From: Candidatus Micrarchaeota archaeon
GTDB lineage: Archaea; Micrarchaeota; Micrarchaeia; Micrarchaeales; Micrarchaeaceae
Length of the DNA stretch: 64,000 bases
Reading direction: 5' to 3'
Assembly: GCA_028866575.1 (NCBI GenBank)
Contig: JAGWHU010000005.1
Coordinates: 1-64,000, forward strand
Each line of letters begins with the position of its first letter. The first letter of the stretch is position 1. The position numbers were made by a program, and so were the translations under genes. Below, in pieces: positions 12,022-62,497 of this stretch. Under the pieces are notes generated by a model. It had not been told where the DNA came from. It did not search any database and saw only the letters and a program-made list of their open reading frames with translations.

Positions 12022-12026
12022 TATTG

Positions 12027-46214: not shown

Positions 46215-46227
46215 AGAAAGTATTCTG

Positions 46228-46244
46228 ACGCCTTGGCCGGGATT
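46228..46244 (-). other. left attachment-like site: 3' tRNA-Asp fragment
   Basis: The 17 bases acgccttggccgggatt are identical to 61585-61601, the 3' end (complement) of the truncated tRNA-Asp, and after one mismatch the next five bases (gaacc) match too. The intact tRNA-Asp differs by one base in this stretch. The fragment fits an attL or decayed att site. The orientation is that of the tRNA genes. Confidence 0.75.
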
Positions 46245-46313
46245 GGAACCAAGATCATAGTATTGTTAACATTAGTAGAATTAACCTTAATTCTTATCAT
46301 GCATTTGCATGTT

Positions 46314-46751
46314 CTAACCAGCTTGCTTGGTGAAGTAGAACATTGCAAAGTAAGCAACCACAGCCACAATGAATCCCAGGCTCATGGTGTACGAATATAT
46401 GTCATTGGTAAATGCAGTAACCAGGAACTGTATTCCCGATGCGAACGCAATGAGCATACCAAGGAACCCTATGGCGCTTATGGCTGATAGTTTCCTGTCT
46501 TTTGACGCGAACGACATACCCACCACGGCTATCGAGCCTATGAAAACCAGTATTCCGATTACGTAATGAGCCAACAGTATTGGATGCCCTGCAAGCAGTG
46601 GGACGTAATCGGCAGGCTGGACAGCATTTCCAGGATAAGTTGGAAAGCTGGTAAACAGGTTCATGGTCATTCCCAGGACGAACTGTATAACTAAAAAAAC
46701 AAGTATGCCGAGTGCTGCTCGCCTTATCCTTGCACGCCATTTGCTGTCCAT
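46314..46751 (-). CDS. four-span hypothetical membrane protein, 145 aa
   Basis: The protein has four membrane segments (near residues 13-32, 52-80, 88-110 and 115-138) and a basic N-terminus (MDSKWRARIRRAALG). I do not recognise it. Its codon use is like the chromosomal genes and unlike the AT-rich element to its right. It is flanked by two tRNA-Asp 3' fragments (46228-46244 and 46797-46807), so it may belong to a separate, small or older insertion. Confidence 0.75.
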   Translation of the reverse strand: MDSKWRARIRRAALGILVFLVIQFVLGMTMNLFTSFPTYPGNAVQPADYVPLLAGHPILLAHYVIGILVFIGSIAVVGMSFASKDRKLSAISAIGFLGMLIAFASGIQFLVTAFTNDIYSYTMSLGFIVAVVAYFAMFYFTKQAG

Positions 46752-46796
46752 AGATGCATCACCCAGTTAATAGAATAAATGAAAACACATAAAAGG

Positions 46797-46807
46797 CGCC
46801 TTGGCCG
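46797..46807 (-). other. second short tRNA-Asp 3' fragment
   Basis: cgccttggccg (11 bases) equals the first 11 bases of the 3' tRNA-Asp end at 61586. Alone it could be chance, but it lies at the point where base composition falls and the element's gene set begins, 46 bases upstream of the 46314-46751 gene on its strand. Confidence 0.4.
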
Positions 46808-47275
46808 ATAATCAAACTTCCAGTCTGAAGCCTTATAAGGATGTCGTCGAGTGTAAAGTTTTCTTATAGAAGCCTCAACACTAATTTATTGACATATGGT
46901 TTTAAATAATTTATTATTCCAATACTTGTGGTTAATAAACCTCAAGCACCCATTTTTCTTTTACGAGTGGTGCGACATAAGAACGAGATGTCCGGGGATA
47001 AAACCGTCCAAAACAGCCGCTAGGCGCACCCATCACGTATTTTGAATTAAAAAATAAAAGTTTAGCTTTTGCATTTTGGCAAATCTGCCAAAATCAACGA
47101 TTTTTACAGATTGTTAATTGAGTAATTAGCGCGAGCCATTCAGTTTTTGTAGAATGTAAAGGTTAGCGCGAGCCTGCTCGCAGTAAAGGGAATTAGAATA
47201 GGTTTGGTCTAGACCTGTTTTCATATAATCACCAGATTCCCGCTGAATTGAGCAGGCATTATATTGGTAGATTTT
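46808..47275. other. element left-end gap without a gene
   Basis: No gene is evident in about 470 bases. It contains a 12-base direct repeat TTAGCGCGAGCC (47126-47137 and 47163-47174, 37 bases apart); the second copy runs into a small hairpin GCGAG-cctg-CTCGC (47168-47181). These could be protein-binding repeats near the element end or its replication/partition site. Confidence 0.4.
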
Positions 47276-47629
47276 ATGGAAAACCAAAACGAAAATAAGG
47301 GACAAAGGAATAGGACCTCAGACGAGGTTCAAGCAAACAGGAAGTTGGCGATAGAAGCTATAAAGCACGAATTCTTTTCAAAATTGTGGGCTATTCGTCT
47401 CCAAGATGCAGCTAGTGAATGGATTAAAAGGATGGGTAATGACTTCAGCATACCGACTGAGGAATTTTTTGAGTTTAGTAATAAGAACAAAGAGGTTTAT
47501 GACAGCCTGAAGACAGCATCTATAGATGAAGTAGAGAAACTTTTTGATGTTGTTGTTAAGCAAATGCTTTCAGAGAAGGCAAAATCAGATGAATATATGA
47601 GCAAGGTTACGGCTGAAGGTGTAAAATGA
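47276..47629 (+). CDS. element protein, 117 aa, unknown
   Basis: I do not recognise this protein. It is charged, soluble and mostly helical (RKLAIEAIKHEFFSKLWAIR, then LFDVVVKQMLSEKAKS). The ATG at 47276 is preferred over an in-frame start 12 bases earlier. It is the first gene of the long plus-strand element module and lies just before another unknown gene, with the stop and next start almost touching. Confidence 0.65.
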   Translation: MENQNENKGQRNRTSDEVQANRKLAIEAIKHEFFSKLWAIRLQDAASEWIKRMGNDFSIPTEEFFEFSNKNKEVYDSLKTASIDEVEKLFDVVVKQMLSEKAKSDEYMSKVTAEGVK

Positions 47630-47640
47630 TGGTGGGTAAT

Positions 47641-48054
47641 ATGACTAAACAAAACGCAAAAAATGAGCAAAAGACAATCTCGTTCGGGATTAAAGGAACT
47701 CAAGAAGAAATAGTGCAGGAAATAATAGAGAAAATAGAGGAATGTAAGGAGGGACTACTTTCTAGTAATGCTTCGCTATGGGCTAAATTTCCTGTGAATT
47801 TTGCATTATATCTTCAAGGCAGATTGGAGGAATATATTAGGCAAAATAAATTGCCGTTAAAAGTCGGTTGCGGCAGCGAGTCCCACTTTAATTCTCTTGA
47901 TGACGTATCGCTCAATAGTATGGCGACTGTTTATATACAACGGGGTATGATTGAAGGTGATGGTATAAAAGAGATAGATTCAACAATTATACCAACATTA
48001 AAGAAATCGTCTTCCGCACAAGACAGAAGCGATTACAACAATATGTATAGGTAA
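47641..48054 (+). CDS. element protein, 137 aa, unknown
   Basis: I do not recognise this protein. The first 60 residues look helical and charged (EEIVQEIIEKIEECKEGLL), the middle strand-like with a Cys (KVGCGSESHF) and the tail polar. The ATG at 47641 has a ribosome-binding site GGTGGG just upstream. It is directly after the 117-aa gene and followed by a 310-base gap. Confidence 0.65.
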   Translation: MTKQNAKNEQKTISFGIKGTQEEIVQEIIEKIEECKEGLLSSNASLWAKFPVNFALYLQGRLEEYIRQNKLPLKVGCGSESHFNSLDDVSLNSMATVYIQRGMIEGDGIKEIDSTIIPTLKKSSSAQDRSDYNNMYR

Positions 48055-48366
48055 GGTCTGTAAAATCCGCTCTCTGAATTTAAAATAAGTAGAAAATGAT
48101 AGCAAATCAAAGCATAGATACTAGTAGAGATTATTATGGACTCCAAAAAGCATTTTTCTTTTATAGAAGGACTGCACAGTGCAGACTAAACATACAGGTT
48201 GTTAGACGTCAATAAATGGTATATTTTCGACGACAAAAGGTTATTATACCTTTAAGTTTAATGATATAATAAAGCGTTAAAAAATATGCTTGGGGTTGCA
48301 AAAACCCTTCACTTTTGCTCAACTGTGTTCTATAGGTATATTTCTGTAACGCTTTGAGGAATTTGT
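48055..48366. other. element gap with palindrome and repeat
   Basis: There is no gene here. It holds the palindrome CTGCAC-a-GTGCAG (48172-48184) and the motif GACGACAAAAGGTTAT (about 48228-48243), which recurs with one change near 50401. A TATA-like stretch is near 48330-48340, before the next small gene. It is a candidate regulatory or replication region. Confidence 0.4.
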
Positions 48367-48561
48367 ATGCCACAGATTAGTTTCCATATTGATAAACCAC
48401 GATTAAAACTGTTAGAGGAAATGAAACAGGCAGGTTTCAATCGTCAGCAGGTTCTCAGACTTGGAGTTATAGCTATCGCCAAAAAATACGGATTTGACGT
48501 TACGAAATACGGGCTTAACCCAGATGAGAATAACGTAAAGATGCCTAATTCTGAAAAGTAA
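48367..48561 (+). CDS. ribbon-helix-helix-like DNA-binding protein
   Basis: The 64-aa protein has a strand (QISFHIDK) followed by two helices (RLKLLEEMKQAGF, then RQQVLRLGVIAIAKKYG), the CopG/Arc pattern, and a short polar tail. Such proteins usually repress plasmid or viral promoters. The palindrome in the gap upstream (48172-48184) is a possible operator. The family call rests on pattern only. Confidence 0.55.
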   Translation: MPQISFHIDKPRLKLLEEMKQAGFNRQQVLRLGVIAIAKKYGFDVTKYGLNPDENNVKMPNSEK

Positions 48562-48576
48562 TTTTCTTGTGATTTG

Positions 48577-48741
48577 ATGGAAAATAAATCTAAACCCTTA
48601 GCGGAGCCCAGCGATGAGGACGTAGAGCTGTTGCTATGGGGTTTGGAGAATAAAGACCTCATAAGAAAAAATGACAGAACTTTGGCTTTATTGCTTGATG
48701 TTATTGAGAAAAGGATGATGGATGCCCAAAAGATGTTATAA
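48577..48741 (+). CDS. small acidic helical protein, 54 aa
   Basis: A short frame starts MENKSKPLAEPSDEDVE and continues as one or two helices (LLLWGLENKDLIRKN, LALLLDVIEKRMM). An SD-like GTGATTTG precedes the ATG, the same leader type as in several other element genes. It is 15 bases after the ribbon-helix-helix gene. Function unknown. Confidence 0.5.
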   Translation: MENKSKPLAEPSDEDVELLLWGLENKDLIRKNDRTLALLLDVIEKRMMDAQKML

Positions 48742-48753
48742 TTGATTCAGTTC

Positions 48754-48771
48754 GGTGATATAGATGGTAGA
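48754..48771 (+). repeat. 18-base repeat over a start codon, copy 1
   Basis: ggtgatatagatggtaga is repeated exactly at 48954-48971, 200 bases later. Both copies span the ribosome-binding site and the ATG (MVE) of consecutive genes, which suggests a duplicated translation-start unit. Confidence 0.6.
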
Positions 48772-48958
48772 GAGTATTTACAGTAATTTTATAGGGAAAA
48801 ATGTTGTAGTTAGGCTCAAAGGAAGCGGATTTAAAAAGTTTGGAAAATTGACGAATGCTGATAATAATTTTGTAGAATTGTTGTTTAGAAATGGCAAAAC
48901 AGAATTGACCGCAATTGATACTATAGAGAGTATCAAGGAAGATATGTTTGTTAGGTGA
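48764..48958 (+). CDS. Sm-like (Lsm-fold) small protein
   Basis: The 64-aa protein has the strand pattern of an Sm barrel: IGKNVVVRLKGSGFKKFGKL, then NADNNFVELLF and a GKTELTAIDTIESIKE end. The Sm1-like block with a conserved Gly and the D/N after the turn are visible, but the Sm2 RG motif is not. It lies just before the DUF3987 gene. It might bind RNA or DNA of the element. Confidence 0.5.
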   Translation: MVESIYSNFIGKNVVVRLKGSGFKKFGKLTNADNNFVELLFRNGKTELTAIDTIESIKEDMFVR

Positions 48959-48971
48959 TATAGATGGTAGA
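48954..48971 (+). repeat. 18-base repeat over a start codon, copy 2
   Basis: Exact second copy of 48754-48771, placed over the start of the DUF3987 gene. Confidence 0.6.
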
Positions 48972-50358
48972 AGAAAAGGTAACTAATGGAACTGTTGAAG
49001 AAGCTTTGGACGGAACAACAAAAAATGATGGTGATTTTATAACACAATTTACTCAAACTATACTAAAAGACATACAAACCTATAACTTCTGGGCAGAGGA
49101 CATAGCAACCAGCTTGCTATCAACCTGTTGCAGTAAAGTAAAGGCATACAGTAGAATAGGGCAGTTTAGGCTCAACGTATGGCATATAGCAATTGCTCCA
49201 AGTGGCAGAGGAGTAAAGAGTGCACCATTTAACCATTTCTTAGAGCCGACCTTAAAGGAATTAGAGAAATATACAAAAGCAGACTATAAATTGCCTTCGA
49301 GTTTTAGCCCGGAATCAATAGTAGATTATCTGAAAAGACAATCCTATGGCATTATAGCAAGGGATGAGATATCAAAGTTGTTCAAGGAAACTTCAGGCAA
49401 GGGCTATACTGCTCAGATGATAGAGATTATGAGCAATATGTATGATGGCAAGATAGACAAGAGATTTACATTTGCTCACGGTTTAAACGATATAGACGAC
49501 TGCTATATTACTTTGATAGGAGCAGCAACACCATACATATATTCTGTTTTAGAACAAAGTGCCTTCGTTCAGGGACTAGGAAATAGAATACTGTTCGAGC
49601 ATTATAAGATAGATAGACCAGTAAGGAACATTACCGACCTTTTTGGTGATACGCAAATCCATAGACTAAGAGCGGATAAAATAGTAGAGTTTGCTAAGAT
49701 GCTCTATAATATTGATAAACTAGAGAACTTGACAGTAGAGATAAACCCAAAGAGTAAAGCTGCTGAACTAATAACCAAATTTGATAACACAATATCTGAA
49801 AGAGTAAATAAAGGCAAAGAAAGCGACATCAAAAAGTCATATTTAGATAGGTCGTTATTGTCAGTATTAAAACTATCTTCCCTGAAGGCAATTAGTAGCC
49901 AGTATAACACAATAGAAGTGCATAATGCTAAAGATGAGATTAAACTAGAAGTAAGAGTAGAAGACGCACAGTGGGCAATAGACAAGGTAAATAGACACTT
50001 AGACTCATTTGATGAAATGTTAAAAGAATGGTATACACAACCAAGAATCAAGCCCGTAGAATCATACGAAGCATACTTTGAAACCATAAAGAGAACTATA
50101 GCCGATTCACCAGATAAGATACTAACTATGGAAGAGATTTTTAACCAAATCGGCTGGACATACTCAGGAACCCCGTATACCGATGGAAAAGGAAAAATAG
50201 AGGCAGCAGTGGGGCGTGGAGATATTAGACAACTTTCAGATGATGAGATAAAGAGTTTACCAAATGATACTTTAGCAAGGCATAAAATTGACATTAAAAG
50301 AAGGCTACCACGAACTTTCGGTTTAAATAAAAATATGAACGATGATAGGAAAAGGTGA
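48964..50358 (+). CDS. DUF3987-type replication protein (helicase/primase-associated)
   Basis: The 464-aa protein shows a P-loop-like APSGRGVKS near residue 80, a GIIARDEISKLF strand near 130 in the Walker B place, MYDGKIDKRF and TLIGAATPYIYSVL, and GLGNRILFEHY, the DUF3987 sequence of blocks. The P-loop has an extra Val between Gly and Lys, so ATP use is uncertain. The last 100 residues look like a winged helix. Proteins of this kind are replication initiators or helicases of mobile elements. It is followed by a repeat-rich AT region. Confidence 0.7.
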   Translation: MVEEKVTNGTVEEALDGTTKNDGDFITQFTQTILKDIQTYNFWAEDIATSLLSTCCSKVKAYSRIGQFRLNVWHIAIAPSGRGVKSAPFNHFLEPTLKELEKYTKADYKLPSSFSPESIVDYLKRQSYGIIARDEISKLFKETSGKGYTAQMIEIMSNMYDGKIDKRFTFAHGLNDIDDCYITLIGAATPYIYSVLEQSAFVQGLGNRILFEHYKIDRPVRNITDLFGDTQIHRLRADKIVEFAKMLYNIDKLENLTVEINPKSKAAELITKFDNTISERVNKGKESDIKKSYLDRSLLSVLKLSSLKAISSQYNTIEVHNAKDEIKLEVRVEDAQWAIDKVNRHLDSFDEMLKEWYTQPRIKPVESYEAYFETIKRTIADSPDKILTMEEIFNQIGWTYSGTPYTDGKGKIEAAVGRGDIRQLSDDEIKSLPNDTLARHKIDIKRRLPRTFGLNKNMNDDRKR

Positions 50359-50574
50359 AAAATCAATATTTTATTTTCGGTTATAAAAATATGATTTATG
50401 ACGTCAAAAGGTTATATCTTTTATATTTTTACGCTATTTAACTTTATAAATATATATTTTTTATTTTAAGTAAAAGATATAAAAATATAAAAATATGGCT
50501 GTTTGACGACGTAATCAATTATTTATTTTGAAAATAAAAATATGGTTTTAAAGAGAGTAAATTAGAAGGTTTTG
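50359..50574. other. AT-rich repeat region, candidate replication origin
   Basis: Almost pure AT. Four or more copies of the unit TATAAAAATAT(G) occur near 50382-50392, 50480-50500 and 50533-50543. GACGTCAAAAGGTTAT at about 50400-50415 repeats the motif at 48228. GACGACGT lies near 50507. The site directly after the replication-like gene fits an origin, which is inference. Confidence 0.45.
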
Positions 50575-50943
50575 ATGATGTCCAATAAAGCCGAAAGATG
50601 CAATTTGTGGGTTTATAAGGCATTTACTTATAAGAAAAAATTACTAAAAAATGGTTTGATAATTATGTCAATAAAAACAATCATATTAAGAGTAAGTGAT
50701 TTGATGACCTTCACTAAATTTCCCAAAGCTGGGTATATCATTACCTATTTGGGCAAAGATGGTGAAACTCTTGCAGAAAAGCCAAAGAAAGTAGCAAAAT
50801 ATTTTTATGTGGGTGTAGAAGAAGAACCTGTAATAGCTGAACGGGATAAGAATCTAAAGAAAGACCTTGGCGAGCTAAGAAATAGTGGCTGTATCATAAA
50901 GTTCGTTAAGAAACTGTTCTATCCGGGATATATAGTAGAGTGA
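50575..50943 (+). CDS. element protein, about 122 aa, unknown
   Basis: I do not recognise this protein. It is basic at the N-terminus (SNKAERCNLWVYKAFTYKKK) and strand-rich after a possible internal start at MSIKTIILRVSDLM, which has its own GTTTGATAATT leader. The body has no membrane segment. Its stop codon overlaps the ATG of the next small membrane protein, so the two are coupled. Confidence 0.6.
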   Translation: MMSNKAERCNLWVYKAFTYKKKLLKNGLIIMSIKTIILRVSDLMTFTKFPKAGYIITYLGKDGETLAEKPKKVAKYFYVGVEEEPVIAERDKNLKKDLGELRNSGCIIKFVKKLFYPGYIVE

Positions 50944-51116
50944 TGGATATGTCGAGAAAAAACAATAACAACTTAGCATTAGCACTAGTCGTTATATTGA
51001 TAATTCTACTGGTATTTGTGATATTAGGGGCTGGTGGATATCTGTCAATATCGGGAGTAACAAATATTCTGAGCAAACCTGTTGTAAATGTCCCTATAAG
51101 TGCGAAATTGCCTTAA
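50943..51116 (+). CDS. single-span small membrane protein, 57 aa
   Basis: MDMSRKNNNN is followed by a strong membrane helix (LALALVVILIILLVFVILG in part) and a short outer tail. The ATG overlaps the preceding stop. Small one-span proteins of this kind often occur in archaeal viruses and secretion modules. It is 10 bases before the next anchored secreted protein. Confidence 0.6.
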   Translation: MDMSRKNNNNLALALVVILIILLVFVILGAGGYLSISGVTNILSKPVVNVPISAKLP

Positions 51117-51126
51117 AGGTGTTTTT

Positions 51127-51891
51127 ATGCCAAGAAGAGTAAAAAGTGAGAAGCAAAAGGATGGAAACTTGCTGTATGGAATAGTTGCTATATTTCTTAT
51201 AATAATAGTTTTGGGGTTCTTGTTTAGTTCTCATCTATTATCTTTTAGTAGCTGTCCACCACTACCTCCAGCAATTTATAGTGGAGCTAATGCAACTGGC
51301 AGTGAAGGCACAGGGTATTCATCAACAGGCATATCAATAGTGTCTTGCGTTGCTCAATATCAGAATAGCTCATTAACACCTGCTTATATCAACTATAGCT
51401 TTGTGTATTACGTTAATCACAACCCATCTACTGGAGCACCATATCCCGGAGTAGCACAAAGTGCATCAATAAGAGTAGTTTCAACAAGAACAGCTTCGCT
51501 TATATCTGCTTCAAATCAGTATAACCAAATGCAACTACAAACAGTTATGTTAGCTTTAAACCAAACACAAGCACAATTAAAGCAAAACTCGGCTGATAAT
51601 TCCTGTGGTTTTAATAGCAACACTTGTTCAGTAGAACTGCTGGGAATACAAGCTAGCACTGAAACAGCAGCAATTATAAACAGCGCTATAGCGTTTAATA
51701 ATCAGCAATCAACGACTTCTGTTTCAACAGTAACCACAATAGCATCAACAACCAGCACAATAGTAGGTCAATCTACAACACAATCAACAACTACAACAAT
51801 ACAACAAAGTTCTTCAGGTAGTCAAAATATATTACAGCAATTCTTTACTTGGCTACAGAATTTATTTAGTAAGAATTGGATAAGCTGGTGA
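51127..51891 (+). CDS. membrane-anchored secreted protein with Thr/Ser/Gln stalk
   Basis: The 254-aa protein has a basic N-terminus (PRRVKSEKQKDG), a membrane anchor (about residues 17-40), an outer region with several Cys and an Asn/Gln-rich segment, a Thr/Ser/Gln repeat stalk (VSTVTTIASTTSTIVG in part) and an amphipathic aromatic C-terminus (LQQFFTWLQNLFSKNW). The aromatic end could insert into a membrane. It is flanked by two tiny membrane proteins, which suggests one membrane-bound complex. Confidence 0.65.
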   Translation: MPRRVKSEKQKDGNLLYGIVAIFLIIIVLGFLFSSHLLSFSSCPPLPPAIYSGANATGSEGTGYSSTGISIVSCVAQYQNSSLTPAYINYSFVYYVNHNPSTGAPYPGVAQSASIRVVSTRTASLISASNQYNQMQLQTVMLALNQTQAQLKQNSADNSCGFNSNTCSVELLGIQASTETAAIINSAIAFNNQQSTTSVSTVTTIASTTSTIVGQSTTQSTTTTIQQSSSGSQNILQQFFTWLQNLFSKNWISW

Positions 51892-51895
51892 GTTT

Positions 51896-52063
51896 ATGGG
51901 AGCAATAGCTTATGTATTTGCAGGTATGTTGTTGATGTTTTTAATATTTGCTGCTGTATTCGGCTGGATACCGATAATTTATAATTACATTATCGGAGTA
52001 GCAACTTTCTTAACAAATATCTATAATGGGCTAACAGCAGTTGGCAAATATTTAGCTCCGTAA
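51896..52063 (+). CDS. small membrane protein, 55 aa
   Basis: The frame starts MGAIAYVFAGMLLMFL and has one long or two short hydrophobic segments (to about residue 50). The stop TAA shares its last base with the next ATG (52063). It belongs to the 50.9-52.1 kb membrane-protein cluster. Function unknown. Confidence 0.6.
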   Translation: MGAIAYVFAGMLLMFLIFAAVFGWIPIIYNYIIGVATFLTNIYNGLTAVGKYLAP

Positions 52064-52452
52064 TGCTGCCTTTCTTTAAATATGCCAGAAATCACTGGTG
52101 TGATAACTTTCTGTTGCAGGAAAGTAACAGTGAGTGTATGTCAAACAACTTAGATGATGAGGAGGAAACTGAGGAAACCGAAGAAAGCGAGGATGATGAG
52201 GAAGAAGATGATAGCAAAGAAGGTTTTTCGTTATTCAAAAGAAAAGAAAAAACTAGTCTTAAAGAATTATGCAATAGGTGTAATGTGAGAGTAGTAAGGG
52301 ATAGTAAAAGTAAAAAGTTGAGGCTAGTTAAGAAAAATCCTACTGGTGAGAGCCTTGATGGTAGCTGTAAAAAAGAAGTGATATGGGCAACGAATAAACA
52401 ATTCAAGAATGAGAATCAGTTAAAATCGTTCTTGGAACATAAAGCGAGATGA
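52063..52452 (+). CDS. acidic protein with Cys motifs
   Basis: The protein is 129 aa from the ATG at 52063 or 104 aa from the ATG at 52138. After the second start comes a run of Asp and Glu with Thr and Ser, then a basic half with a CNRCNVRVV motif near residue 71 and one more Cys pair (SCKK). The acid run then basic region looks like a DNA-mimic or zinc-binding regulator. I do not recognise the family. Confidence 0.55.
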   Translation: MLPFFKYARNHWCDNFLLQESNSECMSNNLDDEEETEETEESEDDEEEDDSKEGFSLFKRKEKTSLKELCNRCNVRVVRDSKSKKLRLVKKNPTGESLDGSCKKEVIWATNKQFKNENQLKSFLEHKAR

Positions 52453-52456
52453 TTTA

Positions 52457-52675
52457 ATGGCAGAACTTTGTGAGTTTTGTGGCTTTGCTGTTGTAGATAA
52501 TGATGCGAGAATTGGTAGATACCATAAGAAAGAGAAGAAAACAGATGTTTATCATAGAGAATGCTACAAGATAATGATGTTTGAGAAAATATCCAAGTAT
52601 CTAAAATCTATGAATGATGAGTTAGGGTATATCCGTAATGCTTTAGAAGAAAAAGCTGCAGAAGATGAGGACTAG
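52457..52675 (+). CDS. small zinc-finger-like protein, 72 aa
   Basis: CEFCGF near residue 5 and YHRECYK near residue 32 form a CxxC...HxxC set for one zinc ion. The rest is a helix with an acidic end (EEKAAEDED). It lies between the acidic protein and a recombinase gene, with four-base gaps, so all three are probably one transcript. It may regulate or accompany the recombinase. Confidence 0.6.
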   Translation: MAELCEFCGFAVVDNDARIGRYHKKEKKTDVYHRECYKIMMFEKISKYLKSMNDELGYIRNALEEKAAEDED

Positions 52676-52678
52676 AGT

Positions 52679-53606: not shown

Positions 53607-53795
53607 ATGCCAATATCCAGAACCACAGAATACGACGATATGTTGAGTAGTTCGCTATCACTTTCTACTCAACCTCTATCGTTTTTTACGCTAAATGCTG
53701 CACCTTTTCTTCCAAATTTGGTGAACGACATTTGGGATGGTGTGTGGGATTTCAAATGGCTTTCGACCACACACCTGATATTTATAGGTGTATAG
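53607..53795 (+). CDS. hypothetical small protein, 62 aa
   Basis: This frame starts MPISRTTEYDDML and ends IFIGV, with one Trp-rich stretch (DIWDGVWDFKW). Its stop TAG abuts the next ATG exactly (53796), which suggests co-translation. I do not recognise it and it could also be a leader region. Low confidence. Confidence 0.35.
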   Translation: MPISRTTEYDDMLSSSLSLSTQPLSFFTLNAAPFLPNLVNDIWDGVWDFKWLSTTHLIFIGV

Positions 53796-54749: not shown

Positions 54750-54753
54750 TTTG

Positions 54754-57700
54754 ATGAGAAAAATAATACCAATATTAGCGGTAGCACTGATGTTTCTGTT
54801 GTTTATGGGAGTAAATAGTGCAGTAACACCCCCGACAAATATAGTAAAATATATCCCAATTACATTTACAAATAATCAAGGTAATCCTGTAACTGCCGGA
54901 ACACCACTATCATTTACGTTTAATGCACTTGCATATCAGCAATACGAAACAAATACGCTTAACAATACGGAGCTATTCTTTGCAAATGGAACTATAGCAC
55001 CATCTTGGCTTGAAGGAAACTATCTTAATGAGCAACAGCAAACAAATACATTATACACCTCAAACTCCGTTTTGTTTTGGTTTAAAACACCTGCTTACAC
55101 TTGGATAGGAGCTAACACTGGAACACCATTAACTAATACCATATATCTTGGCTTTGCGGGTAATACAGCTACAACTAGCAATCTACTATTGAGTTTAACT
55201 GCTAATGTAGGAGTAGCACCACAATTAACCTGCTCAAATCCATTAGCAACCGCTTCTTGCAGTAAAGGTAATGGGGTTCAGGGGATTTATGGGGAATATG
55301 ATGATGGAAATTCTATATTTACTGTTTATGATAATTTTAAAGGACAGACCATATCAAGTGGCTGGGATACAAACACACTATCTGGTCAAGTGGTTTCAAA
55401 CGGAATAACTACCGTAGGCACTGATTCATCTGGACAAGCATTATCTTGGAATACATTATATAATCCCTTAGGTAAATCGGTTGATTCTTTAATGGGATAT
55501 GTAAATACACATACAGCATCTGCTAACAGCACAGGATTATCCTTTTCAGCATCTGATACTGAGGGATTAAACTTAGGAAATAATGGCATAATTGGTGGAT
55601 ATATTTGGAGTATCGGTATTGGGGAAAATTCGTTTATAGTAAATCCTGCTCCTCTTTTCAACTATGGTCATATAACTGCATCTTCTGCATCAAATTTTCT
55701 TTTGTCATTAGCGATACCGTCTAATGGCATAACGTCAAGTTTCGCAACAAATTATACTACAGTTTTTACATTAACAAACACAGCTTCTAATACAGTAACA
55801 AGTAATGCGGTTTATGCAGGAATTTATATGGGAAGTTTTGGCAATTTCAAAAACTATAACCAGTGGTTTAGAGTAAGAACACTACCACCAAACAGCATAA
55901 TGCCAGCTGCTACCTTTAATCCAGTTCAGATTTCACTCTCAAATCCTACATTAATAGAAAGTAATACTCTGATAGACCAAGGTCAAGGAATACTATTTAC
56001 AGCAGGAGTTTCTTTTGGTGGGCAGCCGTATAGCTATGCGTATAATGTTTATGCATACAATTCTCAAACCTCATCAAATACGCTAATAGCAAATATGTTA
56101 TTTACAAGCAATTCTTATACATCGAACACTTGGTTCTGGCAGCCTTCAGGTAATCTTTATATTGGCAATAGCATATTCCACGCAAATGTAGTTATTACGG
56201 ATAGCTCGTCTGATGTTGTTAATTCGGTATTCGTATATTTCGGATATAACTCTGTGTTCTTAGTAGGTTCACCTACAGAATCAAATAGTATAATTGATGT
56301 AGGACAAAAGACTTTACAGACCGCTAACCCATCGCAAGGAACTCAACCTTATGTATCTTATCAGTGGTTTACGAATTATGGTTCTACTGTTACTTGCTCT
56401 GGAACTGGTAATGCCATAAGTGGAGCAACATCAAGCACTTATTTTGCATCACCCACAACCTCGAATGCTTACGCATATCAGGTAACTGATTCTGCTTCAT
56501 TAAGTGCTAACACTGCCTGTTCATCAGGTGATTCTGAAACAACTAATCCCGCATTAACATTAACCTCTCTAGTATCGTCTAACACAATTGCTGATAAAAG
56601 TCAATTTGAAACTTTCACTTATAAAATAACTGGAGGACAACAGCCATATACATACAACTTTATTATAACTGATTCGGCAAGTTCGGAAACAAGCAATAAG
56701 ATTTATACTGGTTGCACACTGACAACTAACTCATTTACTCTACAGTTACCTATTTCTATGGCCACAGGATTAACCACCATAACTGCAAATGTGCAGGACT
56801 CAGCAACTACAAATACTCAACTGATAACAACTAACACTTTTGGTGTTAATTCAATACCAGTAATAACAATAAGCCCATCAAATGAAATTATAGACTCAAA
56901 TCAGTTAGAGGTATATACAATATCTGATAGTGGTGGAACCTCACCATTCACTGTTGAGTTGTATAATGTTACAGGCTCAAAACAGCAGGGTTCAAACGTA
57001 ATAATAACAACTGCTGGTGGAACTAATACAGTATCTTTTATTGTTAATAGCCCAGTCAATTCAAACAGCTTCACATTTAATGCTGTGGCTACGGATTATG
57101 GGACAACAGCTAATGATGTTGTTAATTCAATAACAAATACCATAACAGTAAATGCTATGTTAAGTGCTGTAATATTACCATCTACCCAGCCTTCTACTCC
57201 GGGAGCATCAGCAACATTAACTGCTACAGTAACAGGTGGGACTAAACCATACACTTACAATTGGTTAGTTATTGCTCCTGATGGTAGCATAGCTTACAAA
57301 GCATTTGGTAGCACTAGCAACTCTGTAACATTAGGTATAAATCAGAATGGTGGATATGTAGCTAATGTTTTAGTCAGTGATTCTGCATCATATTCAGCAT
57401 TTAACATATCAGTAAATGCCACAATATCATCAAGCACTCCGGGAACTTCTGGTGGTGCAGGTGGTGGGGGAGGCTCACCATTCTCTAATACAATAACAGC
57501 AGTAGCCAATACCATATCTAATACCATAATAACGCCAGTGGCAGTCGCTGTTACCAACTCACCAGTAATTTTAGACTTACAATATGCGTATGGTGTTAGT
57601 GTCATCGGTATCCCAGTATGGATAATTTTTGAGATAATTTTATTATTTACCGCCTTGATACTTTATGGTAATAAACGAAGGCAATGGTCGTATAAAGACA

Positions 57701-57777
57701 ATAACACTAGTTACATAGCCCCAGCCTTAATTGCTGTATTAGTATTTATCCTATTCTTAATGAGCAACATATTCTAA
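54754..57777 (+). CDS. giant surface protein with DUF2341-like and Ig-like domains
   Basis: The 1007-aa protein has a signal peptide (about 1-24), a DUF2341-like domain (IAPSWLEG, NTIYLGFAG, YGEYDDGNSIFTVYDNF), a large middle domain (about 190-390), then about five Ig/PKD-like repeats of 85-100 residues, each with a G-x-QPY- or GGTKPYTY-type strand, a Gly-rich hinge and two C-terminal membrane segments (about 945-975 and 985-1005). It is very rich in Asn, Thr and Ser. The N-terminal domain is related to the broken chromosomal surface protein at 14851-16324. Confidence 0.85.
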   Translation: MRKIIPILAVALMFLLFMGVNSAVTPPTNIVKYIPITFTNNQGNPVTAGTPLSFTFNALAYQQYETNTLNNTELFFANGTIAPSWLEGNYLNEQQQTNTLYTSNSVLFWFKTPAYTWIGANTGTPLTNTIYLGFAGNTATTSNLLLSLTANVGVAPQLTCSNPLATASCSKGNGVQGIYGEYDDGNSIFTVYDNFKGQTISSGWDTNTLSGQVVSNGITTVGTDSSGQALSWNTLYNPLGKSVDSLMGYVNTHTASANSTGLSFSASDTEGLNLGNNGIIGGYIWSIGIGENSFIVNPAPLFNYGHITASSASNFLLSLAIPSNGITSSFATNYTTVFTLTNTASNTVTSNAVYAGIYMGSFGNFKNYNQWFRVRTLPPNSIMPAATFNPVQISLSNPTLIESNTLIDQGQGILFTAGVSFGGQPYSYAYNVYAYNSQTSSNTLIANMLFTSNSYTSNTWFWQPSGNLYIGNSIFHANVVITDSSSDVVNSVFVYFGYNSVFLVGSPTESNSIIDVGQKTLQTANPSQGTQPYVSYQWFTNYGSTVTCSGTGNAISGATSSTYFASPTTSNAYAYQVTDSASLSANTACSSGDSETTNPALTLTSLVSSNTIADKSQFETFTYKITGGQQPYTYNFIITDSASSETSNKIYTGCTLTTNSFTLQLPISMATGLTTITANVQDSATTNTQLITTNTFGVNSIPVITISPSNEIIDSNQLEVYTISDSGGTSPFTVELYNVTGSKQQGSNVIITTAGGTNTVSFIVNSPVNSNSFTFNAVATDYGTTANDVVNSITNTITVNAMLSAVILPSTQPSTPGASATLTATVTGGTKPYTYNWLVIAPDGSIAYKAFGSTSNSVTLGINQNGGYVANVLVSDSASYSAFNISVNATISSSTPGTSGGAGGGGGSPFSNTITAVANTISNTIITPVAVAVTNSPVILDLQYAYGVSVIGIPVWIIFEIILLFTALILYGNKRRQWSYKDNNTSYIAPALIAVLVFILFLMSNIF

Positions 57778-57780
57778 CGT

Positions 57781-57843
57781 TTTAAAGTCGGTATTGATAT
57801 TTTAAAAACCCTTAATGATGTTTAAAGGGTTAAGGACTTTAAA
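57781..57843 (+). terminator. nested hairpin after the surface protein gene
   Basis: TTTAAAGTC (57781-57789) pairs with GACTTTAAA (57835-57843) as an outer stem. Inside it AACCCTT (57807-57813) pairs with AAGGGTT (57825-57831). It starts three bases after the stop codon and probably ends or protects the long transcript. Confidence 0.55.
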
Positions 57844-58118
57844 TAAACTGAGCGTAAGTATGAGAACTGCTAACAGCCTTATTCAAAGATGATAAATAAA
57901 CCATCCTGGATCCCATATTCAAAGAACAAAATCTAATGCACTTCTATTGTATGGACTGCCTGAATAACGCTCCATTTAACTTGGAACAAACGATGTCAGG
58001 GGCTTAACTCTTATATTAAACGTCAAGAATACGAGCCTTGGAGCTTAAATGTAAGCGTTATTTTTACCGCTGTAAAGTGTCATCTCTCATAAATCATAAG
58101 ATAAGATTAAGTGGTAAA
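57844..58118. other. gap between surface protein and next gene
   Basis: About 275 bases without a gene. I see no strong repeat. A TATA-like ttatatt (about 58011-58017) could serve the small membrane gene at 58119. Confidence 0.35.
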
Positions 58119-58364
58119 ATGAAGGTCAAGCATATTGAGAAAACTGCACATAATACATACAATCGAATAAGAGTAGGCTATTACAATTACTTATCTGTCC
58201 CTGTATCAATAGCGACCTTCTTGGTAATATTTGAGGGCTTTTTATTGCTGATATTCCCACAACTTAGAACCTTATCCTCAGGAGCTATCGGACTGATTAG
58301 TTTTATGGTGATGATAGCATTAGCATATTACTTTGGCTATAGGTATGAGAAGATGTATGGGTAA
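58119..58364 (+). CDS. two-span hypothetical membrane protein, 81 aa
   Basis: MKVKHIEKTAHNTYNRI is followed by two membrane helices (about residues 30-50 and 55-76) and a short basic tail (GYRYEKMYG). The ATG at 58119 is chosen; the upstream frame adds a Cys/Lys-rich segment without a good start. It is the last plus-strand gene of the element and converges with the GNAT gene three bases away. Confidence 0.55.
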   Translation: MKVKHIEKTAHNTYNRIRVGYYNYLSVPVSIATFLVIFEGFLLLIFPQLRTLSSGAIGLISFMVMIALAYYFGYRYEKMYG

Positions 58365-58367
58365 TTT

Positions 58368-58766
58368 CTATTTCTTCTTTAGGTCTAAAATCATAAGCAC
58401 ATAATTATTTCTGTATTTCATCATAATTTTAAACCCAAATCTCTCATAAAATTTAGGCTTTGTTGTAGTTAATAAGATAAAGTATGCATCTTTCTTGTTC
58501 TTTATTAGTTGTATAATTCTTTTGACAAGTGTAGTTCCTATTCCTTTACCTTGATGTTCGGGTAAAACATTAACCCAGAACATTTGATAGAAGTTGTAAT
58601 CCATCCACGATTGAATGTAACCAGCAAAACCCAATATTTTACTATTATCTTCTGCTACCAAGTATCTTGGATTATACACATAATTATTAAACATAGCCTC
58701 TATTTCTAGCTTTGACTTCTTTTGATAGAGTTTAGAGTAATTTATGCCGACTATTTTTGATGCCAT
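58368..58766 (-). CDS. GNAT family N-acetyltransferase
   Basis: The 132-aa protein has the acetyl-CoA-binding motif HQGKGIGTTLV near residue 70, the preceding VNVLPE strand and the FYERFGFK end. No ATG, GTG or TTG precedes residue 1 in frame, yet the bases upstream read IRPIRKEEAD, a typical GNAT N-terminus, with an ATA 45 bases before the ATG. The true start may be that ATA. It follows the SET gene. The acceptor is unknown. Confidence 0.85.
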   Translation of the reverse strand: MASKIVGINYSKLYQKKSKLEIEAMFNNYVYNPRYLVAEDNSKILGFAGYIQSWMDYNFYQMFWVNVLPEHQGKGIGTTLVKRIIQLIKNKKDAYFILLTTTKPKFYERFGFKIMMKYRNNYVLMILDLKKK

Positions 58767-58811
58767 ATCTGCTTCTTCTTTTCTTATTGGTCGTATTTTT
58801 ATAGAATCATC

Positions 58812-59207
58812 TCAATTGTAGGTCTTTGGTTTTCTAAAGTTCTTTTCAAAAGAATGATAATCATCAGTTATTTCTTCTCCCTTTTTTATATCTCTAATTG
58901 CTTTAGTTATAACTTCTTCCTCGCCTTTATAATAAGCACTCAAGACATTTGGACTATCTGAATGATTGAAGTATTTACCATTATCCGAAGAAAAACAATA
59001 TTTACCGCTCTTCTTACTTAACCAAACATATTCTTCAAGGTATTTTTGGACTTGATTTGGGAGTTTTTTAATTTGTTTCTTAGTGAATCTTAAATCAAAA
59101 TTAGGTGTAAATCGCCATACAATAGTTCCTTTCTTGATATTCTGGTCAGCAAAAAGCCCTATTCCGTGTATTTTAGATTGTCTGATTTTTGTTTTTACAC
59201 ACATCAT
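58812..59207 (-). CDS. SET-domain protein (putative lysine methyltransferase)
   Basis: The 131-aa protein is a compact SET domain: SKIHGIGLFADQNIKKG near residue 11, YFNHSDSPN near residue 80 (the knot NH motif) and KAIRDIKKGEEITDDY near residue 103 in shortened form, in which the usual ELxYDY reads EITDDY. Methylation of a host or element protein is the family function; the substrate is unknown. No pre-SET zinc cluster is seen. It and the GNAT gene form a likely protein-modification pair. Confidence 0.82.
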   Translation of the reverse strand: MMCVKTKIRQSKIHGIGLFADQNIKKGTIVWRFTPNFDLRFTKKQIKKLPNQVQKYLEEYVWLSKKSGKYCFSSDNGKYFNHSDSPNVLSAYYKGEEEVITKAIRDIKKGEEITDDYHSFEKNFRKPKTYN

Positions 59208-59232
59208 AGAATCAGCATAGGACTTACAGACT

Positions 59233-59790
59233 TTATGATTGTCTTACACATAAGAACTGATTTATGCTTGTATTGAATGTTAGGCTGTATTGACCACTAT
59301 TACCACAGGCATTCGATAATACACATTCTTCTTTTCCGTTCTGTGAGAATAAAGAGTATCCGGCTGTGCAAGAGTCGGGTAGTGGCTCGCATAAACCGTT
59401 CTGTTTATCGTAGACATAACCAGCAGCACAATTACTATTATTTACCCCTAAAGCACCTGCTAATTGTGAGCCCTCTGCTTTACAATTAGAATTATTTTGG
59501 TATACTGCACCAGGAGGACAGTTAGGTCTTACACCACTACCACTAAAGTAAATACTAGCATTCCAATAACAATACCCTAATGACGAATTATAATAAGATG
59601 TTGCAGGGCATCCTGATTCTGTGCAATTATTGTTAGAATTGCAAGAAGGGATAAAAGTAAGAGGCAGTTTATTAGCTGGTTTTTGATTAAAAAGAATAAA
59701 ACCTGCCAAAGCAATTATAGCAATAATTAGAACAGCCAAACCGAATATCAGTTTCTTATTGCCTTGTTTTTTAGGTATTTCTTTAGCCAT
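59233..59790 (-). CDS. membrane-anchored Cys-rich secreted protein
   Basis: The 185-aa protein has a short cytoplasmic basic N-terminus (EIPKKQGNKK), a membrane anchor (residues 13-34) and an outer part with about twelve Cys in short CxnC units (CNSNNNCTESGC, CEPLPDSC), with several N-glycosylation sites. It looks like a disulfide-rich surface or adhesion domain. I do not recognise the family. It reads toward the SET gene. Confidence 0.65.
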   Translation of the reverse strand: MAKEIPKKQGNKKLIFGLAVLIIAIIALAGFILFNQKPANKLPLTFIPSCNSNNNCTESGCPATSYYNSSLGYCYWNASIYFSGSGVRPNCPPGAVYQNNSNCKAEGSQLAGALGVNNSNCAAGYVYDKQNGLCEPLPDSCTAGYSLFSQNGKEECVLSNACGNSGQYSLTFNTSINQFLCVRQS

Positions 59791-59961
59791 AGAAGATATA
59801 CTCTAATAAGGCTTAAAAAGGTTGTCAAAAACGCTACTTCTCTTGGAAGGTCACCCCTCCAGCCCCTTATCTTTATAAGACCTCTCAATTATCGTCTTAT
59901 ACACGTTAATTCCAGCGTGGAAACGGGGTTTTATAGGTTATCTTAACTTAAAGAGTCTGCC

Positions 59962-60027
59962 AGAGCCTTATTTCGCGTGTTCTAAGGCTCTCTACAGAGC
60001 CATATCAGGATAAGCGGGTTATAACCC
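59962..60027. other. hairpin and palindrome upstream of the Cys-rich gene
   Basis: AGAGCCTTA (59962-59970) pairs with TAAGGCTCT (59983-59991), a perfect 9-bp stem with a 12-base loop. A second element, GGGTTATAACCC (60016-60027), is a perfect palindrome. The 59791-60041 gap holds no gene. These may be the terminator of the 66-aa gene, an operator, or a small RNA. Confidence 0.5.
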
Positions 60028-60041
60028 CTTTATAGAGAGAT

Positions 60042-60242
60042 TTACTTAAAATTAAGCCTATTCCTTTGCCTGTTTATATCATCAACCATAACCTTAACCT
60101 CATCCTTAATCATCCCCTGTTTATACTTGCCTTTGGCAACAATCTTTATGCTCTTGTTCTCATAAACCGCCTTTGGGATTTCTACGCTGTAGAAACCATT
60201 CCTGTCCTTATGTGCTTTTACTTCGTATTCGTTTTTCTTCAT
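60042..60242 (-). CDS. small basic protein, 66 aa
   Basis: The protein begins MKKNEYEVKAHKDRNGF and has a strand-rich, Lys-rich sequence (KIVAKGKYKQGMIKDEV) that could be a small DNA-binding barrel. It starts 12 bases after the integrase stop on the same strand, so it may be co-expressed and could be an excisionase-type partner; that is a guess from position. Confidence 0.55.
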   Translation of the reverse strand: MKKNEYEVKAHKDRNGFYSVEIPKAVYENKSIKIVAKGKYKQGMIKDEVKVMVDDINRQRNRLNFK

Positions 60243-60254
60243 AAAATCACCTAA

Positions 60255-61499
60255 TCATTTCTTTTTATATTTTTGTGCTGATTTAAGTAATTTAGCAAGC
60301 CATCTAGGGTCCTGCGATGCAGCAGCAAACATCTCACCCAGCTTGTTTATTTTCTCATCATCAGAGATAGCTATGTAAGTATCAAGAGGAGCACCACATC
60401 TATCGCAGTGAACAGCAGTTAATTTATTCTGATTTTTACACCTTTGACACTCTTTATAGGGCAATTTTGGTGGCGTATTAACCTCTTTCTGCGGATTAAC
60501 TCCGTTTGCTCGCATAACAGCCTCATCCATATCTTTATCATTTAGATGCACATAAACAGCAGCCATTTTAGAGGATTGAGTCCAGCCAAAGTGCTTTTTT
60601 AATTGTTGTTCTGTTAATTGGTTAGCATAATTAGACGCTCTCGCGTGCCTAAAAGCGTGAGGATGCACAGGCTTATTGATTTTAGCTTCTTTACTAAGCC
60701 TCTGTAGCATTCGTCTTATAGATGCACCCTTGACTACACCATTCTTTTCCTCTTCTCTATTATTGCCTAATGCTCGCCAAAGGTTATCATCAGGTTTCAA
60801 GTATTTGTTTTCTTCTAGATAATTAACAAGGTAAGGAACCGACATCATTATCCCTACTTTTCTCATACCAGTTTTACCTTTATACTCTTTATTTCCGACC
60901 ATTATATGCCCTAAACTGCCCTCAAGATTGATGTCCTTTACTCTCAAATGCATTAGCTCACCCACTCTAATTCCACTATCATAAAGAAGGGCTATAATTG
61001 CTCTGTCCCTTGTGTATTTTGAGGCATCAATAAGCTTCAAAACTTCTTCTGGCGTAAGTATATCCTCAGGTAGAATTCTCTTGTGATTTGATGGTAGGAA
61101 TGTCTTAATCCAAGATACTTGTTTTGGATAATAATTATCCTCAATACTGCCCATCAAGTATTTATAGAAATATTTAGTAGTAATGCGTATTTTCAACTTC
61201 GTATTCTCTGCGTAATCTCCAGTTTCTACTTTTAGTATAGCACTTTGAATATCAGCCCTTGTTGCTGATTTATAGTCTTTTTTCTCACCATAAAGCTGGG
61301 TAAATATTCTCAAACAGTATAAATGCCTCAGTATAGTCTTCCTGTTCTTTCCTGATGCTATTAAGAATTGGGTAAAATCCTCAACAGCCTTATAGTTGCT
61401 TTTTGATAGATTAACTGTTATGCTCGACTGCCCACTGGCAGTTTCCTTTTTGTAGCCTTTAAAGTAACGGAGAGCATCCGCTAGTTCCATATAAAACAC
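60255..61499 (-). CDS. int: tyrosine recombinase integrase with C-terminal zinc ribbon
   Basis: The 414-aa integrase has an N-terminal core-binding region (residues 25-130) and a catalytic domain: YDSGIRVGELMHL near residue 178 (Arg), HPHAFRHARASN near 280 (His, Arg), KKHFGWTQ near 306 (Trp in the His position), and nucleophile Tyr in VYVHL near 319. A zinc ribbon follows (CQRCKNQNK ... CDRCGAP, near 355-375). It lies 86 bases from the tRNA-derived attachment site at 61585, the classic position for an integrase. Confidence 0.92.
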   Translation of the reverse strand: MFYMELADALRYFKGYKKETASGQSSITVNLSKSNYKAVEDFTQFLIASGKNRKTILRHLYCLRIFTQLYGEKKDYKSATRADIQSAILKVETGDYAENTKLKIRITTKYFYKYLMGSIEDNYYPKQVSWIKTFLPSNHKRILPEDILTPEEVLKLIDASKYTRDRAIIALLYDSGIRVGELMHLRVKDINLEGSLGHIMVGNKEYKGKTGMRKVGIMMSVPYLVNYLEENKYLKPDDNLWRALGNNREEEKNGVVKGASIRRMLQRLSKEAKINKPVHPHAFRHARASNYANQLTEQQLKKHFGWTQSSKMAAVYVHLNDKDMDEAVMRANGVNPQKEVNTPPKLPYKECQRCKNQNKLTAVHCDRCGAPLDTYIAISDDEKINKLGEMFAAASQDPRWLAKLLKSAQKYKKK

Positions 61500-61505
61500 C
61501 TCTCT

Positions 61506-61557
61506 TATATATAAAAAGACGAGTATTTATACCTTATGATAACCTTTATATATAAGG
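61506..61557 (-). promoter_or_regulatory. integrase promoter with repeated TTATATATAA
   Basis: TTATATATAA occurs at about 61505-61514 and again at about 61548-61557, with a TATA-like tataaata between them (complement), upstream of the integrase start at 61499. Repeats around the TATA box suggest autoregulation. Confidence 0.4.
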
Positions 61558-61585
61558 GGTTAAAGGCTTCAGACTACAAGTAATA

Positions 61586-61644
61586 CGCCTTGGCCGGGAT
61601 TCGAACCCGGGTTACAACCGTGACAGGGCCGTATGCTGACCACT
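61586..61644 (-). pseudogene. 5'-truncated tRNA-Asp(GTC), right attachment site
   Basis: This carries the tRNA-Asp sequence from the D-loop to the discriminator base: anticodon arm with GTC, T-arm CCGGG/CCCGG and the 3' acceptor strand. The first 14 bases (5' acceptor strand and half of the D-arm) are missing and replaced by unrelated sequence, so no acceptor stem can form. Compared with the intact tRNA at 62426 the T-stem differs by a compensatory pair (C-G for T-A). 61585-61601 equals the left site at 46228-46244. Confidence 0.85.
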
Positions 61645-61687
61645 TTTAACCTCTTCCCTTAGACTAAGAGCTTTGTTTCTCATGAAA

Positions 61688-61858
61688 TCACTTTCTTTTT
61701 GAAGGACTGCCCAAGTATAATTTCTTTGCCTGCTTCCATACATTCCAGGCAACCGCAAAAGTTATTATCTCTACCTCTCTTCCACGCGTTGCTTTTTCCA
61801 GAGTAATCCTGTACTTTTTCTCCATGTAGTCCAAAAACTCTTTGTCATACTTTTCCAT
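61688..61858 (-). CDS. small hypothetical protein, 56 aa
   Basis: A frame on the minus strand reads MEKYDKEFLDYMEKKYR and ends LGSPSKRK. It is charged and helical, with a Trp-rich central stretch (AVAWNVWKQAKK). I do not recognise it. It lies between the truncated and intact tRNA-Asp genes, so it probably belongs to an older insertion. Confidence 0.45.
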   Translation of the reverse strand: MEKYDKEFLDYMEKKYRITLEKATRGREVEIITFAVAWNVWKQAKKLYLGSPSKRK

Positions 61859-61891
61859 TATACCATCTTAAAGCCATATTTTCACCAGCAC

Positions 61892-62320
61892 CTATTTTCT
61901 TGTAAACACCGCATCCGCATCACGAATCCATTTCTTGCCATCAGCCGATCTTTCGAATAAGACAGTCATGCGTTTTCCATTTTTGCTTAATCTGCCCTCC
62001 ATGCGCTGATGGAATCCTGGAGCTGCCCTCCATATCCTCCAGATTTGCGACTTCATACTCATCGAATAAATGCGAGATACACCACGTGTATCCGATCCCA
62101 AGACTGTGAAGTTATGCGAGGAGTCATCTCCACCAATGACCCAGTAAGTAGGAAATCCGATTCGAAGCTTGCCTACGAGGAATTGTTCATCTGCAAGCCA
62201 CGTAAAGGTTGCTGACGAGTTGAACTCTCTAGGTCCTTGTCCTCCAGCAAGTTTATAGGTTTCCTCCGACCAGCGGATTCTAGTCTTCCAATGGCCTACC
62301 AGAGGTGCAAGAGGCCGCAA
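61892..62320 (-). CDS. lipocalin-like (DUF1579-type) protein, probably of bacterial origin
   Basis: The 142-aa protein matches the pattern of small bacterial proteins of the DUF1579/nitrobindin-like kind: LVGHWKTRIRW near the start, FTWLADEQFLVGKL, DTRGVSRIYSM, WRAAPGFHQRMEG and SADGKKWIRDADAVFTR. It starts with TTG at 62320; the frame is open upstream to an ATA with a GGTGATT leader, which could be a lost or unusual start. Not recognisably related to its neighbours. It sits between two tRNA-Asp copies. Confidence 0.7.
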   Translation of the reverse strand: MRPLAPLVGHWKTRIRWSEETYKLAGGQGPREFNSSATFTWLADEQFLVGKLRIGFPTYWVIGGDDSSHNFTVLGSDTRGVSRIYSMSMKSQIWRIWRAAPGFHQRMEGRLSKNGKRMTVLFERSADGKKWIRDADAVFTRK

Positions 62321-62425
62321 CGCAGAGACAGATGGTCCCCTAGCCCATGCTTTTGTGATCTTTGGTTTTTTTGATACTATTAAATCACCAATATTAATTT
62401 AGAGAAATAAATTAATAAAAGAAGA

Positions 62426-62497
62426 CGCCTTGGTCGGGATTCGAACCCGAGTCGCAGCCGTGACAGGGCCGTATGCTGACCACTACACTACCAAGGC
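62426..62497 (-). tRNA. tRNA-Asp(GTC), intact
   Basis: Acceptor GCCTTGG/CCAAGGC with discriminator G, D-stem GTGT/GCAT, anticodon arm CGGCC-CTGTCAC-GGCTG giving anticodon GTC, and T-arm TCGGG-TTCGAAT-CCCGA. No intron and no encoded CCA. It is the functional copy at this integration hotspot; elements lie off its 3' end. Confidence 0.95.

Follow-up and report, generated by a model that had tools for sequence, protein, structure and literature searches.

The region downstream of the tRNA-Asp gene in a Candidatus Micrarchaeota archaeon (assembly GCA_028866575.1, contig JAGWHU010000005.1) was analyzed in a window of 64,000 nucleotides (nt) at the start of an 83.6-kb contig; the genome comprises 1.13 Mb in 53 contigs. 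The region is probably one array of an integron-like, site-specific cassette system anchored on the 3' ends of tRNA genes in Micrarchaeota. The evidence consists of repeats, a common core, arrays, individual units common to different genera and delimited by breakpoints at the sites, and variable gene content at an orthologous tRNA. Integrons are the best-known collectors of single genes as cassettes, and the bacterial ones stack resistance genes. With somewhat less assurance, we favor the broader view that Micrarchaeota possess a second, independent gene-cassette platform beside integrons, in which tRNA-mimicking units from a Micrarchaeota-wide pool are stacked at tRNA 3' ends by isotype-specialised Xer-like zinc-ribbon integrases.

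Layout of the tRNA-Asp region

tRNA genes were called with ARAGORN and Rfam RF00005; compared genomes are designated by G numbers. On the minus strand, the intact tRNA-Asp was followed by segment A, a core at 61586-61596, element B (integrase first), a core at 46798-46808, segment C, a core at 46229-46239 and normal chromosome. The main features were:

62540-62615 (narrower call, 62543-62615), minus strand: tRNA-Asn, the chromosomal flank beside GatB (GatB-tRNA-Asn order kept in at least 12 relatives)
62424-62498 (Rfam, 62426-62497), minus strand: intact tRNA-Asp, the attI-like docking gene (ARAGORN and Rfam RF00005; synteny with GatB and tRNA-Asn in G043 and G023)
62426-62436, minus strand: recombination core, the last 11 nt of the intact tRNA-Asp, reading CGACCAAGGCG
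61586-62425, minus strand: cassette A, 840 bp, without recombinase (delimited by repeats; both genes have relatives in cassettes elsewhere)
61586-61644, minus strand: terminal 59-nt mimic of the tRNA-Asp 3' end in A, including the core copy 61586-61596
46798-61585, minus strand: element B, an AT-rich integrative element with its own integrase, 14,788 bp (11-nt cores as in relatives; GC profile)
61563-61581, minus strand: right inverted-repeat arm just inside B (pair I23, 19 nt, 89% complementary)
60255-61499, minus strand: tyrosine recombinase, Xer-like, with C-terminal zinc ribbon, 414 amino acids (aa) as listed (Pfam Phage_integrase, 2.9e-22)
46816-46834, plus strand: left inverted-repeat arm just inside B (pair I23)
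46798-46808, minus strand: distal core copy of B, CGGCCAAGGCG
46229-46797, minus strand: segment or cassette C, 569 bp (repeat D2)
46229-46250, minus strand: 22-nt mimic of T-arm and acceptor in C (core 46229-46239)

A first-pass annotation of the window had reported copies of the tRNA-Asp 3' end in one orientation at four places, and all four were recovered: the intact tRNA and copies at 61585-61644 (60 nt, 92% identical), 46797-46808 (12-nt match) and 46227-46250 (24 nt, 92% identical). A, B and C each closed with the core formed by the last 11 nt of tRNA-Asp, an exact 11-mer for which chance predicts about 0.0035 occurrences per strand in 14.8 kb. Repeats, GC profile and open reading frames bore out the earlier division of the region into a segment with one membrane gene (C), a 14.8-kb AT-rich element (B, with 31-38% GC versus 46-54% outside) and a 0.8-kb segment with two genes (A), and the integrase was indeed located beside the right end of B. 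The three displaced cores all read CGGCCAAGGCG, the form present in the tRNA-Asp of most relatives, while the core of the intact tRNA-Asp (CGACCAAGGCG) differs from it, with a matching change in the T stem.

When the ends of six related elements were joined, the common core corresponded to the last 11-13 nt of the tRNA in all six. Because these relatives use an 11-13-nt core, and because the 19-nt inverted repeat of B is situated immediately inward of the two cores at 61586 and 46798-46808, the left end of B was assigned to the copy at 46798-46808. The joined attP of B displayed exact arms of 13 nt at 10-13 nt from the core, and the right inverted-repeat arm is likely an arm site of the integrase. 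B encodes a complete catalytic integrase and carries a tRNA 3' end in the same orientation at both ends, features that by sequence place it among the tRNA-targeting integrative elements; as such it would excise as a circle. SSV-type suicide integration does not apply to B, whose integrase is one intact frame and is not split at the tRNA. A crossover in the anticodon loop as in SSV, prompted by the 59-nt copy of A, was considered, but the shared 11-nt core is the better fit; A alone is not decisive. A 12-kb relative of B in another genome (G202:C34) extended from tRNA-Thr to the 11-nt copy of that tRNA and comprised related versions of the integrase, the helicase/primase and the large surface protein.

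The GatB-tRNA-Asn-tRNA-Asp synteny was present in G043 and G023 without B. Two genes of the window at 34-39 kb resumed about 3 kb past tRNA-Asp in G043, and both flanks of the insert therefore belong together. This synteny, along with the location of the integrase family after tRNA genes (see below), supports the successive insertions at one tRNA proposed at first pass.

Cassettes A and C

The genes of the two segments without recombinase were:

61892-62320, minus strand: 142-aa gene of A, distantly DUF1579-like via a relative (relatives at 31-33% aa identity)
61688-61858, minus strand: 56-aa gene of A (60-67% identical to genes of Asn-type cassettes in the arrays of contigs C2 and C1 of the same genome and in G239 and G242)
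46314-46751, minus strand: 145-aa membrane protein gene of C (relative of about 50% aa identity in G241)

Relatives of the 142-aa gene were found in four other genomes. They formed the first cassette gene after tRNA-Asn in G059 and G198 and the second unit after tRNA-Asn, behind a toxin-antitoxin-like unit, in G223, and each of these three was bounded by tRNA-Asn 3'-end copies. The G059 relative matched DUF1579 below the Pfam cut-off. The relative of the C gene in G241 was located directly after tRNA-Asp, with degenerate tRNA-Asp 3' ends behind it, and units closed by tRNA-Asp 3' copies also occurred in G003, G019 and G023. PADLOC returned no match for the genes of A and C. Judged by these relatives and ends, A and C appear to be units of the cassette system and not mere debris; the first-pass annotation had not recognised them as part of a single-gene cassette system that extends over many tRNA genes.

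Cassette arrays in the genome and the phylum

Among 103 tRNAs in four genomes, 17 showed an anchored copy of at least 11 nt within 4.5 kb downstream. In the controls, none of the 103 tRNAs had such a copy upstream and 2 had one on the reverse strand, and swapped tRNAs gave 16 of 1129 (downstream copies versus swapped tRNAs, Fisher P = 5e-11). The genome analyzed here harbored units ended by tRNA 3' copies, many of them in tandem, at Asp, Ser-aga, Asn, Thr-tgt, Glu-ttc, Glu-ctc, Ile and Leu-tag. Arrays of such units, each with one to few genes, were present at Asn, Thr-tgt, Glu-ctc, Glu-ttc, Ser, Ile and Asp.

Units at tRNA-Asn shared a conserved end (hereafter Asn-type), composed of CTTGTCGGA, a 19-nt hairpin and TTGTGCTTCGGGC. 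Among 301 Micrarchaeota genomes, 40 carried this end, every one a member of either of two families within a single order, and 51 distinct ends were collected; the reversed pattern had no match in the 301 genomes. On contig C2 of the same genome, at least five Asn-type units formed an array after tRNA-Asn. On contig C1 (L322, G000:C1:100000-119999, 5735-12329), an Asn-type array without tRNA was located just past the stop codon of a 282-aa gene; the sequence at its start was identical to the tRNA-Asn core, and the arrangement suggests an insertion at a secondary site. The hairpin comprised 7 bp, paired in 95% of cells, with double changes at one pair that were often equalled by shuffles, and the cassette sites matched no RNA family in Rfam.

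Cargo included RibD-like reductases, AHSA1, VOC, DUF488, GNAT, 2'-5' RNA ligase-like, AAA_14/DUF4143 and AbiE proteins. Some related genes were common to different tRNAs: the 142-aa family occurred at both tRNA-Asp and tRNA-Asn, RibD at both tRNA-Thr and tRNA-Asn. TATA-like boxes (TATAAAAA or TTTAAA) were located just upstream of 36 of the 51 cassette ends (e.g., L342, L303), and the Asn-type site may also carry a promoter.

Exchange between species

Blocks of at least 400 bp and at least 80% identity were compared across 34 array loci. Of 46 block starts, 25 coincided with a site in both genomes, as did 23 of 38 block ends; the random expectation was 0.26%. Whole cassettes were common to different genera at 80-98% DNA identity, as between contig C2 and G059, which belongs to another family (93.6% over 762 nt), G031 and G035 (97.9% over 1482 nt), and G223 and G198 (92.6% over 621 nt). 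In contrast, the GatB proteins of this genome and G059 were 43% identical. At the tRNA-Asn locus, a single gene family was found upstream in 16 genomes, while in 19 genomes the first downstream gene came from 13 unrelated families. Just two of these occurred more than once in that position, the integrase six times and the DUF1579-like gene twice.

The integrase family

Relatives of the B integrase in named genomes were retrieved with an alignment-based scan, a query with the single integrase having given none, and were mostly from 'Candidatus Micrarchaeota' bins. R178, K209, H281, R284 and Y316, as well as Cys 351/354/365/368, were invariant across 11 integrase relatives. At 52 of 77 testable named loci, covering more than 12 isotypes, the integrase gene followed a tRNA 3' end on its own strand at a distance of 25-241 nt. 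In a tree of 52 integrases, isotype labels needed 25 changes versus 39.9 when shuffled (0 of 200 shuffles as low); integrase lineages thus keep to one tRNA and switch at times. At tRNA-Asn, the elements that bear an integrase (L160 and, with the gene broken, G027) shared the terminal hairpin site with integrase-free units, which links the enzyme family to the cassettes. For the integrase of B itself, translation more probably starts at an ATG 9 nt inside the listed frame.

The viral collection gave no evidence of a viral carrier, as the Asn-type site occurred in none of its contigs; it also contained no relative of the B helicase and only distant relatives of the B integrase.

Proposed mechanism

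The docking site would be the last 11-13 nt of a tRNA gene, and the mobile units would be small circles of one to few genes plus a copy of the core, preceded by a T-arm mimic or a conserved hairpin. A tyrosine recombinase would act on two cores, that of the circular unit and that of the tRNA 3' end, and recombine them. Each insertion would restore the tRNA, and the tail of the unit (T-arm mimic or hairpin) followed by the core would mark its far end. Older units would be pushed outward while the newest would adjoin the tRNA, and the arrival order in the window would be C, then B, bringing the integrase, then A. The Xer-like zinc-ribbon integrases of B-like elements would act in trans on integrase-free cassettes. 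A circle of B, if formed, would join ...TTGATTATCGGCCAAGGCG to TATTACTTGTAG. We infer the excision and integration of the units, their circular movement, the action of integrases in trans and the arrival order. Layouts that would reflect such outward displacement also occurred in G040:C27, where a 5-kb segment and a core lie between the tRNA and the integrase, and in G198, where a unit separates the tRNA from an integrase fragment.

If true, a convergent tRNA-based cassette system would explain how genes are gained and swapped in genomes of about 1 Mb, including AbiE, restriction-like and toxin-antitoxin genes, and would offer a simple route to mobile genes in DPANN archaea. The mechanism it implies can be put to the test: an integrase would recognise the acceptor end of the tRNA and serve, in trans, units that have no integrase of their own.

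Several points weigh against a cassette system of this kind. Integrases of this genome adjoined tRNA-Asp, -Arg and -Thr only, and most of its arrays had no matching enzyme. About 45% of the block boundaries fell off any recognised site, and neither an excised circle nor an empty/occupied pair within a single species was seen among the genome assemblies compared. The comparison with relatives lacking the element, recommended at first pass, succeeded in that G043 and G023 keep the GatB-tRNA-Asn-tRNA-Asp order, but the orthologous site of G043 is not a clean empty site, six more genes (39.4-45.8 kb) being missing there too. C could be an old native neighbor of tRNA-Asp, G241 having the same order. 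Finally, most of the genomes compared were metagenome bins.

Alternative explanations

Ordinary accretion would explain the region by several full elements inserted at one tRNA, A and C being deletion remnants that lost their integrases. B does look like an ordinary integrase element, archaeal elements are known to integrate in tandem at a single locus (PMC8371274), and degenerate units exist, such as the integrase fragment of G198 and the broken integrase of G027. However, small intact units with the same ends recur in tandem and whole units are shared between genera at up to 98% identity, while matching ends are not expected from random deletion; accretion is thus an unlikely account. More doubtful still is a single 15.4-kb element with ends at 46228 and 61585, as the first-pass annotation had proposed from an exact 17-base match (46228-46244 = 61585-61601). 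The match is real and joins both places, but the inverted-repeat arms and the 11-nt core set the left end at 46798-46808, for which reason a left end of B at 46228 was rejected, and a tRNA 3' end of greater age would account for the longer match at 46228; the element supported here spans 46798-61585.

Mis-joins at repeats could in principle have arisen in binning or assembly, most genomes being bins, and host homologous recombination between tRNA-like repeats could have produced similar layouts. Either is highly improbable, since arrays were found within long contigs (contig C2 of this genome, 164 kb; G231 C4, 484 kb; G027, a single contig of 772 kb) beside a conserved upstream gene, matching unit ends occurred in dozens of genomes, and a core of just 11-12 nt is short for homologous recombination. 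A genuine integron, with IntI and attC cassettes, would be alike in its working, with tandem small genes, a common recombination site and clusters without a nearby integrase, and integrons are known in archaea including DPANN lineages (PMC9668308). The region does display an array of units with a common recombination site, exchanged unit-wise. However, none of 119 integrase relatives passed the cut-off of the integron-integrase model TIGR02249 (for the integrase of B, 55.5 bits versus 265), and attC sites, defined by R' GTTRRRY and R'' RYYYAAC, were lacking, GTTRRRY being found in 0 of the 51 Asn-type ends and about five times in shuffled copies. Arrays began at tRNA 3' ends, or after a protein gene on contig C1, and not at an attI beside intI. 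Lacking two defining marks, the IntI-type integrase and the attC motif, the system is not considered an integron despite its like working, and we give that alternative scarcely any weight.

Comparison with known systems

The cassette system proposed here resembles integrons and CALINs (PMC9668308) in its tandem small cassettes, common recombination site, tyrosine recombinase and clusters far from a recombinase, and in a cargo where small enzymes and toxin-antitoxin or abortive-infection genes are abundant. It differs in that units dock at the 3' end of a tRNA gene rather than at attI, the cassettes end in a mimic of the tRNA 3' end or in a hairpin of conserved sequence with the core, without attC motif, and the candidate recombinase is an Xer-like zinc-ribbon integrase instead of IntI. 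Moreover, within one genome several tRNA species each bear an array, and cassette genes lie in both orientations. The report of archaeal integrons, including those of DPANN, by Ghaly et al. 2022 does not mention tRNA (PMC9668308).

With tRNA-targeting integrative elements and tandem islands (Islander, PMC4383910; PMC8371274), the system shares a tyrosine integrase at a tRNA, a displaced 3' fragment at the far end and a restored tRNA. Most Micrarchaeota units are instead 0.5-3 kb long, integrase-free, stacked, provided with a common end and singly shared between genera, with a core of 11-13 nt. A review of archaeal tyrosine recombinases mentions tandem integration alone (PMC8371274). Integrase-less satellites and hitcher elements (PMC11389934) and tycheposons (PMC10872708) are reportedly also small tRNA-associated cargo units with a possible dependence on a helper recombinase, but are larger and multi-gene.

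To our knowledge, accounts of satellites, hitchers and tycheposons do not describe ordered arrays of single-gene units that share a conserved hairpin site. Two papers on Micrarchaeota genomes mention neither integrase nor cassettes. An incomplete search of the literature on archaeal integrons, archaeal tyrosine recombinases and Micrarchaeota genomes found no description of tRNA-anchored cassette arrays, and an earlier description is possible.

Other genes of B and neighboring genes

Besides its integrase, B carried the following genes:

48964-50358, plus strand: primase/helicase-like replication protein (phrog_3022 DNA primase, 2.6e-16; relatives in the G202 and G227 elements)
52679-53269, plus strand: second, short Xer-like recombinase, 196 aa (Phage_integrase, 5.1e-23)
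53796-54749, plus strand: Peptidase A4 (glutamic peptidase) family protein (PF01828, 1.4e-12)
54751-57777, plus strand: large surface-like protein, 1008 aa (relatives in the G202 and G009 elements and on contigs C4 and C2 of the same genome)

A SET-domain protein gene was also located inside B (58812-59207). The glutamic peptidase gene sits inside a mobile element of a likely acidophilic archaeon. Contig C4 (L087, G000:C4:1-8999) held several tandem or broken relatives of the 1008-aa surface-like protein, and contig C2 one more (L096). Six genes of the window (39362-45833), which separate the array from the nearest genes in synteny with G043, were absent at the orthologous place in G043, and this stretch is possibly an older insertion.

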